Under the pieces are notes generated by a model. That model did not search any database, was not told where the DNA came from, and worked only from the letters and a program-made list of their open reading frames with translations. A program made the position numbers and the translations under genes. DNA of 32,038 bases from Fibrobacter sp. (GTDB lineage: Bacteria; Fibrobacterota; Chitinivibrionia; Chitinivibrionales; Chitinispirillaceae): NCBI GenBank assembly GCA_012515615.1, contig JAAYYB010000021.1, positions 1 through 32,038 of the forward strand, in the 5' to 3' direction. Shown here one piece after another: positions 27,300 to 31,566 of this stretch (position 1 is the first letter of the stretch; each line of letters starts with the position of its first letter).

Positions 27300-30215
27300 A
27301 TGCCAAGACTTTTTGATTTATTACCTGATGATACCAGAAAAGAGCTTATAGCCGAGGCTCGAAGCAATTTACGTCCAAAAGGCGCAAAAGGAAGTCATCC
27401 ACAAACGCAAAAACACAGAAAAGAAAATCCTCTTCCTGTGCCCGATTTCGTAGCCCTCGATATCGAAACCACCGGCCTTGATTTCAAAAACGACCGCATA
27501 ATCGAAATTGGCTGTGTAAAATTTATAGACAGCAAACCGACTCAGGAATATACTACATTTGTAAATGCAGGCATCGCAATTCCAGCATACATTACCGACC
27601 TGACAGGAATCTCAGATTCCGATATCAAAACAGCTCCGTCATTTCCAGAGATCGCCGATCAACTCCTCGAGTTCATTGGGAATCTTCCCCTGTGCGGTCA
27701 CCAGATCGAATTTGACGCCACTTTTATAAGTGAAGAGCTCAAAAGAATCAGCCGTCCGCCGCTTTCGGTCCAGCTCCTCGACACTGCTTTGCTTTCGCGA
27801 ATTCTCCTGCAGCCCCTCGGGCGCTTTTCGCTCAAAGCTGTCAGCGAATTTTTAAACGTAAAGCTTGAAAACGCTCACAGGGCCCTGCACGATGCCCGTG
27901 CATCGGGCGAAGTAGCCGTTTCTCTTGTACCCAGAATCACCTCGCTTCCTCTCAATATTCGTCAGACTATGGCTGCCTGCGCCCCGGGATCCTTCTTTAA
28001 GGGTCTGCTCATTAAATCTCTTGGGAGCTGCAAACCGCTTGTGAAAATCGAGAATAACCGCCTTCTCATCTCTCTTCCAAAAATCTCTTCTCCTGAAACC
28101 TTTACTTCAATTGAAAGAGAGAAAATCGGACAGATATTCTCAAATGACGGGGCACTTCAGAAAGTTTTCGATTCCTTCACTCCAAGACCCAGCCAGAAAG
28201 ATATGGCCCTGCAGGTTACCGACTCTCTCAACACACAATCTTTCCTGATAGCCGAAGCAGGAACCGGAACCGGCAAATCACTGGCCTACCTTATACCTTC
28301 TGCCATTTGGGCCCTTGCCAACAAATGCAGGGTCATTGTCTGCACCAGAACACGCAACCTTCAGGACCAGCTCTTTAAAAAAGATCTTCCCCTGATAAAA
28401 GAAATTACAGGCGAAAAACTCAAATATTCAGTTCTAAAGGGTAGAAACAACTACATCTGTCTTAACAGGTGGAAACGCCTGCTCACCGGTGAGGCCGGGA
28501 ATCTCTCCCCGCGTGAGCGTTTTGCGATTCTGCCCCTTATTCTATGGGTAGAGAATACCGAGAGCGGTGACATAGAGGAACAGAATCAGTTTAACCCTAA
28601 ATGGTTCAACAAAATCTGGAACCTTATCTCTGCTGAAAGCCATGAGTGTTCAGGAAGACATTGTGAATATTTCCAATCATGCTTTTTCCAGCAGGCCCGT
28701 CAAAAGGCTATGGGCTCTCACATCGTTGTCATAAACCATGCCCTTTTCTTCTCTGATATATGCAGTGAAAATTCTTTCCTGGGTAAAAACGGCTCCATCA
28801 TCTTCGATGAAGCTCATCACCTGGAATCATGCGGACACCGCCACCTCAGAGTCGAACTTGACACCAACAGACTCGGTCTTTTTACAGATATGGTCAATAA
28901 TCTTGTCCTGAAAATCGGGGATCTCAAGAACGAGAAAGTGATTTACGAAAACGGAAAAGAACTCAGGACACAGCTGAAGCATTTCCGCAAAAGGTCCCAG
29001 GGACTGCTGACGGAACTCGAAGGATGGGTCTACTCCCAGCAGCAGAATATAATCAGAGATTATCAGGTGTCATACGCGGAAGATGCCTTTGAAAGACTCC
29101 TTGAACCCTTTGTCTTTGAAACCACTCTTAATGAACTGATCGACAAGCTGTACTCCCTTAAACAGGCCCTCGTTTCACATCCTGATCCCCAACTCTTCGA
29201 AGAACTTGAATCAGACGTTCAGGCCTGCTCCGAAAGAGCATCGCAGCTCAAAGCCGATTTCAGTTACCTGATCTCTGCCAGAACCGAAGATCATGTCTTC
29301 TGGGTTGAAGGCAACAAGGAAAAAGGGTGGATTAAACTCTGCGGGGTTCCCCTTGATATCGGCGGAATGCTCTCTGAGGTCTGGAACAGCTGCAATGGCG
29401 CACTTATATTTACATCCGCTACACTCTCTATCTCTAAATCAGTAGCTTATTTTAAAAGCTCTGCAGGTCTCTCTCCGCATGATCAGCGAACTGCTGTAGG
29501 ACTGTTCAAATCTCCTTTTGATCCCAATCAGGCGATCATGGGAGCTATTAAAAACAGCCCTGAACCCGACAGCCCTCAGTTCTGCGACTTTATCGTAAAC
29601 ACAATCGTCAGTCTCCATACAGAATTCCAGAAGAATATTCTGGTCCTCTTTACCGCCAATTCAATGCTCAATTCAGTTTATGAACAGTTGAGGGCACAAA
29701 AACAAATTGAGAGCGGAAAACTTCTTGCACAGGGAATAAGTGGAACAAGACAGAACATTCTTGAGCAGTTTAAACAGAATCAGCGAAGAATTCTTCTTGG
29801 CACCGACAGCTTCTGGGAGGGTATAGATGTGCCCGGAGAAGCATGTGAAATTGTAATTATCGCCAGGCTCCCTTTTCCGGTTCCGACACACCCCCTCACA
29901 CAGGCAATAGCCCGGAGAATGGAAAAAATCAACGGCGAATCCTTCTTCTCATACTCGGTTCCCGAAGCAGTGATTAAATTCCGTCAGGGCGCCGGTCGGC
30001 TTATCAGAACTGTAAATGATCGAGGGGCCTTGATTGTGCTTGATAACCGCATTTTAACCAAAGGATACGGCAAACAGTTTATAAGATCTCTTGACGGTGA
30101 ATTCAGAAGCTTTGATGATATTACTCAAATGATCTCACAAGTAAAAAGCTTCTTTGACACCGATCCTTCAGATTTTCACTCTGAACCCAGCTACGTTCCC
30201 CTGGAGGACGCATGA
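27300..30215 (+). CDS. dinG: DinG-type helicase with N-terminal DEDDh exonuclease domain
   Basis: This 971-residue protein has two parts. The exonuclease domain (about 47-225) has all DEDDh residues: Asp54 and Glu56 in ALDIETTGLD, Asp in QIEFDATFI, and His and Asp in AHRALHDARA. The superfamily 2 helicase has Walker A GTGTGKS (321-327, Lys326), DEAH box 503-506, GALIFTSATLS, GTDSFWEGIDVPG and FRQGAGRLIRT. Four cysteines (387, 450, 455, 461) with C-x4-C-x5-C at the end match the iron-sulphur site of XPD/DinG. E. coli DinG lacks the nuclease domain, while Staphylococcus DinG has it but lacks the cluster, so this combination is notable. Likely roles are unwinding of R-loops or damaged DNA. The stop overlaps lptE by 4 nt. 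The ribosome site is weak. Confidence 0.93.
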   Translation: MPRLFDLLPDDTRKELIAEARSNLRPKGAKGSHPQTQKHRKENPLPVPDFVALDIETTGLDFKNDRIIEIGCVKFIDSKPTQEYTTFVNAGIAIPAYITDLTGISDSDIKTAPSFPEIADQLLEFIGNLPLCGHQIEFDATFISEELKRISRPPLSVQLLDTALLSRILLQPLGRFSLKAVSEFLNVKLENAHRALHDARASGEVAVSLVPRITSLPLNIRQTMAACAPGSFFKGLLIKSLGSCKPLVKIENNRLLISLPKISSPETFTSIEREKIGQIFSNDGALQKVFDSFTPRPSQKDMALQVTDSLNTQSFLIAEAGTGTGKSLAYLIPSAIWALANKCRVIVCTRTRNLQDQLFKKDLPLIKEITGEKLKYSVLKGRNNYICLNRWKRLLTGEAGNLSPRERFAILPLILWVENTESGDIEEQNQFNPKWFNKIWNLISAESHECSGRHCEYFQSCFFQQARQKAMGSHIVVINHALFFSDICSENSFLGKNGSIIFDEAHHLESCGHRHLRVELDTNRLGLFTDMVNNLVLKIGDLKNEKVIYENGKELRTQLKHFRKRSQGLLTELEGWVYSQQQNIIRDYQVSYAEDAFERLLEPFVFETTLNELIDKLYSLKQALVSHPDPQLFEELESDVQACSERASQLKADFSYLISARTEDHVFWVEGNKEKGWIKLCGVPLDIGGMLSEVWNSCNGALIFTSATLSISKSVAYFKSSAGLSPHDQRTAVGLFKSPFDPNQAIMGAIKNSPEPDSPQFCDFIVNTIVSLHTEFQKNILVLFTANSMLNSVYEQLRAQKQIESGKLLAQGISGTRQNILEQFKQNQRRILLGTDSFWEGIDVPGEACEIVIIARLPFPVPTHPLTQAIARRMEKINGESFFSYSVPEAVIKFRQGAGRLIRTVNDRGALIVLDNRILTKGYGKQFIRSLDGEFRSFDDITQMISQVKSFFDTDPSDFHSEPSYVPLEDA

Positions 30216-30712
30216 CCAGAATTTTTGCAGTCGCACTGACCCTTTTCTTTTTTGTAATTCCCGGCTGCGGCATCTATTCTTTCAAGAACACCTCTCTGCC
30301 ATCCCATATAAAAACGGTTGATATCCCGGTTATGTCCAACCTATCTCTGGAACCAGATATCGCTGATGAGATTACCAGAGAACTCAACCGTGAAGTTTTA
30401 AGCAAAAACCTTTTTAAAATCTCCTCCGAAAAAGGCGATGCCACTATAATCGGCAAAATCACTAATTATGAAAACACACCCTATATTTATGGCGCATCAG
30501 GCACAAAACAGGCTGATGTCGACCAGTATATTGTGCGCATTACTGCAGACATGGAATTCATTGATAACAAAGAAGATAAGTCACTATTCGAGGGATCTGT
30601 AAGGGGTGAAGGCATCTATAATTTCAAAACGGAAAGCGAACAAACCGGACGGGAAAAGGCCATAAAGGATGTTGTACAGCGGCTTCTTGAGAGCTCAATG
30701 CAGAGCTGGTGA
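30212..30712 (+). CDS. lptE: LPS-assembly lipoprotein LptE-like
   Basis: This is a 166-residue lipoprotein. The hydrophobic signal ends in VIPGCG with Cys19 as the expected lipidation site; Pro at -2 is less usual. The mature start GIYSFKNTSLPSHIKTVDIPVMSNLSLEPDIADEITRELNREV is the hallmark of the LptE/RlpB family in non-enterobacteria. LptE plugs the LptD barrel that inserts lipopolysaccharide in the outer membrane. The protein contains strands and helices in the LptE order and ends in REKAIKDVVQRLLESSM. GGAGG lies upstream, and the ATGA overlap with dinG implies coupled translation. dapF follows 20 nt downstream. No lptD is present in the window. Confidence 0.85.
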   Translation: MTRIFAVALTLFFFVIPGCGIYSFKNTSLPSHIKTVDIPVMSNLSLEPDIADEITRELNREVLSKNLFKISSEKGDATIIGKITNYENTPYIYGASGTKQADVDQYIVRITADMEFIDNKEDKSLFEGSVRGEGIYNFKTESEQTGREKAIKDVVQRLLESSMQSW

Positions 30713-30732
30713 CCAATCTTCGAGGTAACACT

Positions 30733-31566
30733 ATGAATTTCATAAAGATGCATGGACTTGGGAATGATTTTATCCTTACCCATGAAGTATCAGCCGGAAC
30801 AGTCAAATCTGTTGCAAAACAAGCAGTTACGCTTTGTGACCGTAGAAAGGGGATCGGTGCCGATGGTATCATTTTCGTACTCCCCTCCCAGAAAGCCGAC
30901 CTCAGGATGTGTATCTTCAACAGCGACGGCAGTGAAGCAGAAATGTGCGGAAACGGTATCCGTTGCTTCGCTTTATATGTTAAACTGCTGAATTTAAACG
31001 ACATACCATCACTTACTATAGAAACTCCAGCCGGCAATATTAAAACTGAGTTTATCGACGAAGACCACATAAAGGTTAATATGGGAAAACCGATCCTGGA
31101 AGCTTCAAGAATTCCTGTCGCCAAGACGGCCGGAAGAGTGTTAAATAAAGAAATCATTATTGATGGTAACTCGTTTAAATTCAATGCTGTATCGATGGGA
31201 AACCCTCACGCGGTAATATACGCCTGCGAACTCACGGACGAACTGGTTTTAGGGCAGGGACCAAAGATCGAAAAGCACCCGATGTTCCCCCGTAAAATTA
31301 ACGTAGAATTCATTAAGGTCCTGTCAGATAATGAAATAGAAATGAGGGTGTGGGAAAGAGGGTGTGGAGAAACTCAGGCTTGTGGCACCGGTGCCTGCGC
31401 AAGTGTGGTATCCGGAATTCTCAGCAATCGTCATGGCAAAAACGTCACCGTTAATCTTCCCGGTGGAAAACTTCAGGTTGAATGGAGCGGAAACGATGAT
31501 GATCCGGTTTATATGACCGGTCCGGCCAGAAAAGTTTTCCAGGGACAAATCGATCTGAACCTATGA
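30733..31566 (+). CDS. dapF: Diaminopimelate epimerase
   Basis: The enzyme converts LL- to meso-diaminopimelate, used for lysine and peptidoglycan. It has 277 residues. The opening MNFIKMHGLGNDFIL is typical. The first catalytic cysteine is Cys72 (MCGNGIRC) and the second Cys217 (QACGTGACAS), within one residue of the E. coli positions. The substrate contacts FNSDGSEAE, SMGNPHAV and GCGETQ are present. Start 30733 has GAGGT 6 nt upstream; a GTG at 30709 overlaps the lptE stop but lacks a comparable ribosome site and would add eight unconserved residues. The stop shares ATGA with the next small membrane gene. Confidence 0.97.
   Translation: MNFIKMHGLGNDFILTHEVSAGTVKSVAKQAVTLCDRRKGIGADGIIFVLPSQKADLRMCIFNSDGSEAEMCGNGIRCFALYVKLLNLNDIPSLTIETPAGNIKTEFIDEDHIKVNMGKPILEASRIPVAKTAGRVLNKEIIIDGNSFKFNAVSMGNPHAVIYACELTDELVLGQGPKIEKHPMFPRKINVEFIKVLSDNEIEMRVWERGCGETQACGTGACASVVSGILSNRHGKNVTVNLPGGKLQVEWSGNDDDPVYMTGPARKVFQGQIDLNL

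Follow-up and report, generated by a model that had tools for sequence, protein, structure and literature searches.

Helicases of the DinG type with an exonuclease domain at the N-terminus have been defined by their domain architecture as the class ExoDinG (Cheng 2025, PMC11981726). According to that paper, the ExoDinGs of Bacillales and Lactobacillales carry a pseudo-FeS (pFeS) domain; it also shows the number of cysteines along a tree, and in its section 3.5 calls for biochemical work on members whose FeS domain is intact. According to Gao 2025 (PMC12345164), the DinG of Staphylococcus aureus combines a 3'-5' exonuclease with a 5'-3' helicase without a cluster, and both activities are required to withstand mitomycin C and formaldehyde. 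CasDinG is reported there to unwind DNA without a cluster as well. The same paper lists Fibrobacterales as an ExoDinG lineage and cites the DinG of Bacteriovorax stolpii as one that has the cysteines. For Bacillus subtilis DinG, an account of work with fork substrates reports no robust helicase activity (PMC12525004). Listeria DinG is reported to remove unprocessed rRNA, in a paper that also describes action of S. aureus DinG on RNA (PMC12774634). Our literature search, which covered titles, the openings of abstracts and few subscription papers, turned up no biochemical study of an ExoDinG with the cluster.

The window analysed here is the whole stretch of 32,038 nucleotides from a Fibrobacter sp. 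assembly, and one of its genes is the subject of this study (Table 1). The encoded protein is very probably an ExoDinG from Chitinispirillales-type Fibrobacterota, that is, a 5'-3' helicase of the XPD/DinG type that is preceded by a DEDDh 3'-5' exonuclease and is expected to contain a [4Fe-4S] cluster. Its reading frame begins with ATG, a start supported by the conservation of the peptide MPRL in the aligned relatives. Its stop overlaps the start of the next gene, encoding an LptE-like lipoprotein, by 4 nt, and dapF follows (window positions 30212-31566). By-eye naming of reading frames places an LptE-like frame after the ExoDinG gene also in four other loci (L021, L024, L027 and L029), with dapF present in L024.

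Table 1. Positions in the window of the ExoDinG gene, its parts and its downstream neighbour.
Feature	Position	Strand	Basis or remark
ExoDinG gene	27300..30215	+	971 aa; S. aureus DinG 8zef_A matched at residues 49-944, E 1.2e-67
N-terminal conserved peptide MPRLFDLL	27300..27323	+	precedes low-confidence linker
DEDDh exonuclease domain, residues 51-205	27450..27914	+	Pfam RNase_T, 101 bits (cut-off 24)
Walker A AGTGTGK, residues 320-326	28257..28277	+	motif read-off
Fe-S region with C387, C450, C455, C461	28458..28682	+	motif read-off and alignments
DEAH box, residues 503-506	28806..28817	+	motif read-off
Putative Arch domain, mostly helical insertion, residues 522-659	28863..29276	+	predicted helices; name by analogy
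Helicase_C_2, second motor domain, residues 770-931	29607..30092	+	152.1 bits (cut-off 25.3)
C-terminal conserved tail YVPLEDA	30192..30212	+	alignment of relatives; pLDDT < 50 at 961-971
LptE-like lipoprotein gene, downstream neighbour	30212..30712	+	Pfam LptE, 37.5 bits (cut-off 23)

The first-pass annotation of this DNA had reported the DEDDh residues, the Walker A motif and cysteines 387, 450, 455 and 461, and our motif read-off and alignments agree with it to the residue. In the nuclease domain, D54, E56, D139, H193 and D198 are all intact, within the motifs DIETT (54-58), HQIEFD (ending at D139) and HRALHD (193-198). The four cysteines align with C120, C194, C199 and C205 of Escherichia coli DinG and with C108, C168, C173 and C179 of YoaA. 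A Pfam DEAD_2 match above the curated cut-off covers residues 348-524, and motif VI (QGAGRLIR) lies at residues 896-903 of the second motor domain. The protein thus has the parts that define an ExoDinG: an N-terminal DEDDh domain with its five residues, two motor domains with Walker A, DEAH box and motif VI, and an FeS domain, here with four cysteines where the definition allows three or four, or a pFeS domain. The Arch domain, defined as an insertion in motor domain 1, is assigned from a predicted helical insertion in the AlphaFold model, with which the DinG folds 6fwr and 6fws align over residues 269-943.

Among NCBIfam models, the best matches were DinG models, every one of them below its equivalog cut-off. 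This holds for NF005981 (627.3 against 789 bits) and TIGR01407 (522 against 547.7 bits), so that the protein and the Bacillus-type one belong to different equivalogs. It also holds for the E. coli-type DinG model NF008729 (371.5 against 598 bits), relative to which our protein has an extra nuclease domain, and for the YoaA model NF053712 (509.2 against 680 bits).

The predicted fold is consistent with an ExoDinG. An AlphaFold2 model made from a 26-row alignment of nuclease-bearing DinGs with all four cysteines (CCCC) had a mean pLDDT of 85.9 and a pTM of 0.81, with pLDDT below 50 at residues 1-4, 25-41 and 961-971. Foldseek ranked S. aureus DinG 8zef first (945 columns, TM 0.68/0.73, rmsd 6.7), followed by 9ii8 and then E. 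coli DinG 6fwr; by sequence, too, the best solved relatives were 8zef (residues 49-944) and 6fwr. VIA-align gave Z 30.7 over 636 residues for 6fws and Z 30.3 over 850 residues for 9ii8. The nuclease domain matched the E. coli epsilon subunit 2gui with Z 24.7 and rmsd 1.5 over 163 residues. Identity to the solved structures was only 20-23% in the structural alignments, which, like the missed equivalog cut-offs, speaks against the assignment.

In an alignment of the query (P0001) with 14 of 24 relative loci (L003-L026), none of the five DEDDh residues or four cysteines varied, at identities as low as 47%, so these motifs are not due to chance. All were again invariant in the 26 rows used for the model (the query and 25 named loci of several phyla); since that set was picked as nuclease-bearing with CCCC, this shows only that the motifs align free of gaps. 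At the N-terminus, M1, P2, L4, D6 and L7 were invariant in the 15-row alignment, and at the C-terminus the YVPL-acidic tail was missing from the translated span in 2 of the 15 rows. Both end peptides, MPRL[FS]DL[LI] and YVPL-acidic, are specific to the order and adjoin low-confidence stretches of the model. Possibly, they are partner-binding motifs.

Matches to the protein at E <= 1e-30 came from 39 of the 41 genomes searched. At E <= 1e-20, 159 of the phylum's 167 genomes gave one, some of these matches covering the helicase only; both counts include the genome of origin. In that genome, the ExoDinG is the single match to the DEAD_2 family (PF06733). A frameshifted or chimeric reading frame was ruled out by relatives of equal length and by the 39 genomes with a match. 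A horizontally acquired or phage gene was likewise rejected, given orthologues across the order and the LptE-like gene downstream in the four loci named above. A search of viral contigs with the protein yielded seven pattern matches and no confirmed relative.

The spread of the architecture was surveyed in the best 80 of 587 confirmed loci from a scan of genome contigs, a sample thereby biased toward the query's kin. The nearest named relatives among these 80 are metagenome-assembled genomes (MAGs) of the Fibrobacterota, from Chitinispirillaceae (63% identity), Chitinispirillales (53%) and Chitinivibrionales (47%). DEDDh and CCCC occurred together in 43 of these best 80 loci, from seven phylum-level lineages (Chloroflexota 30, Bacillota 3, Fibrobacterota 3, Cloacimonadota 3, Zixiibacteriota 2, Calditrichota 1, UBP11 1). 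Two others of the 80 had DEDDh with three cysteines, and five, all Bacillota of the class Bacilli (Exiguobacterium, two Lysinibacillus, Sporosarcina and Peribacillus), had DEDDh without a cluster motif. DEDDh was lacking in 25 loci with CCCC and in one with three cysteines, and the remaining four of the 80 were cut by contig ends (L063, L070, L093 and L094). In a larger table of 97 rows, DEDDh with CCCC was found in 58 rows, or 56 genomes, because L006/L027 and L026/L029, whose contigs are equal in length, were each judged to be one genome listed twice. Two nuclease-bearing DinGs of Dormiibacterota/Chloroflexota (L072:5001-7607 and L086:5001-7580), grouped on the tree, have SCCC instead of CCCC. 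A Zixiibacteriota DinG (L049:5001-7847) has kept CCCC next to a decayed nuclease domain with none of the five DEDDh residues.

The evolution of the cluster was followed on a maximum-likelihood tree of the helicase part, built from 76 of the 97 rows after removal by hand of 21 near neighbours, with the four cysteine columns excluded. Cluster state changed once on this tree, within Bacilli. The five cluster-less Bacilli form one clade (SH-aLRT 99) nested among cluster-bearing rows, and their sister is the four-cysteine ExoDinG of a Tepidibacillus MAG (SH-aLRT 100). The tree itself gives the change no direction; we read it as a loss and not a gain because of this nesting and because both E. coli outgroup proteins have CCCC. 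The Staphylococcus-type cluster-less form is therefore probably derived, the combination of exonuclease and cluster being older within ExoDinG; most simply, a single loss of the cluster followed the fusion of the nuclease. An alternative explanation might be that the cysteines, even if conserved, bind zinc or nothing, and that the protein works like cluster-independent S. aureus DinG, which like CasDinG unwinds DNA without a cluster (PMC12345164). This seems extremely improbable, since the cysteines are spaced and placed as in E. coli DinG and YoaA, none of the four varies in the 26 rows (a set chosen for CCCC), and their loss happens once, as a clade.

The history of the nuclease is less simple. 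Its presence changed twice on the helicase tree, with L070, L093 and L094 unset and L049 scored as a decayed exonuclease form. Rows with the exonuclease form two groups, separated by helicase-only clades. Exonuclease and cluster might accordingly be ancestral to all DinG/YoaA-type helicases, the helicase-only forms having lost the nuclease; two changes fit one gain and one loss, and they fit two independent fusions equally well. Forcing the exonuclease forms into one clade cost 16.6 log units on the helicase tree (p 0.038, from a quick tree, with the group named post hoc), and on the exonuclease-domain tree the same test did not reject one clade (p 0.196; 31 rows and 156 columns, with an unsettled bootstrap and very long branches). 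In that poor tree, Orn-like rows stand beside the query's domain on a branch of 6.1. As the root of the helicase tree is set by the single, very long branch of E. coli DinG, we regard such a general ancestry as possible and rather doubtful.

The first-pass annotation had suggested that the protein may show an ancestral or dual-activity form, and had proposed a tree with domain and cysteine mapping. The tree described above, with its single change in Bacilli, bears out the first part in that the form probably predates the cluster-less state of Bacilli. Dual activity, in contrast, is also found in cluster-less S. aureus DinG, and because that protein unwinds DNA without a cluster, it is not special to the cluster-bearing form. 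Nor is the combination of nuclease and cluster special in itself, given its frequency among the best 80 loci and its description in 2025 (PMC11981726, PMC12345164). The annotation had named 'common and already characterised' as the finding that would speak against it: the combination is common, and as an architecture it has been characterised. Judged from sequence, nuclease and cluster motif in one chain are real but ordinary, and the protein is a further ExoDinG in which the motif has been kept. The architecture being known and widespread, the find alters no picture.

A search of the genome of origin with PF00929 (RNase_T) returned a single match, the DEDDh domain of Table 1. The search thus found no separate PF00929 enzyme of the DnaQ or Orn type there. 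The ExoDinG was the only RNase_T match in 28 of 40 genomes of the order, classified by hand from listed places and frame lengths; nine others had further matches, two had one match that was not an ExoDinG, and one had none. Elsewhere in the phylum, three sampled genomes of family f8 and one of f12 had three or four matches each, the f8 genomes having four. The DnaE of the genome of origin (L123, C213) carries FVHLHNHTEYS near its start, including the PHP motif HLHNH, which we take to be of the catalytic, proofreading type. If so, proofreading need not fall to the ExoDinG, which would explain why no RNase_T-type epsilon subunit was found.

These matches raise the question of whether the protein is mainly an RNA-processing or general 3'-5' exonuclease, its helicase serving as a threading motor and its cluster being structural. 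Being the sole PF00929 match in its own genome and in most genomes of the order would suit such a role, as would the reported activities of Listeria and S. aureus DinG on RNA (PMC12774634). We nevertheless consider it unlikely: the DnaE could proofread, the search for nucleases covered the single family PF00929, and the cluster and helicase motifs are intact in every aligned row of the order. A bolder version, in which the ExoDinG is the sole DEDDh exonuclease in most cells of the order, trims DNA and RNA 3' ends in general, and uses its cluster as a redox switch that couples and uncouples helicase and nuclease, is very improbable. Its starting point, the sole RNase_T match in the genome of origin, is the best remaining lead.

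For an ExoDinG with an intact cluster motif, which we favour, we infer exonuclease and helicase activity, cluster binding and a role in repair, including that of crosslinks, by analogy with relatives. The motor domains would load on single-stranded DNA and travel 5' to 3', with the FeS domain at the entrance acting as a wedge and possibly as a redox gate, and the Arch domain gripping the strand. Unwinding would feed 3' ends to the exonuclease, which would trim them. One chain could then both unwind and resect stalled, crosslinked or frayed ends, perhaps of RNA too. In view of the lack of robust helicase activity reported for B. subtilis DinG and the action of Listeria DinG on unprocessed rRNA, the cellular task may differ. 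The protein and its many relatives would suit the biochemistry of intact-FeS ExoDinGs, in particular the question of whether the cluster still has a role after fusion to a nuclease, and the single loss in Bacilli makes a natural comparison for the role of the cluster in ExoDinG.

Compared to known systems, the protein is most like the intact-FeS ExoDinGs such as Bacteriovorax stolpii DinG, sharing with them the DEDDh domain at the N-terminus, both motor domains, the putative Arch domain and the cysteine motif. It differs in coming from an order of Fibrobacterota other than Fibrobacterales and in having its own conserved peptides at both ends. S. aureus DinG (8zef, 9ii8) is the best solved match over nearly the full length and shares the DEDDh and motor motifs; unlike our protein, it is described with a pseudo-FeS domain without cysteines (PMC12345164), in line with the nuclease without cluster that the first-pass annotation had ascribed to it. 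Conversely, E. coli DinG (6fwr, 6fws) shares the helicase part and the four cysteines and, as also anticipated there, lacks the exonuclease domain, with 54 residues ahead of Walker A in the alignment. E. coli YoaA likewise shares the four cysteines and is without an exonuclease domain.
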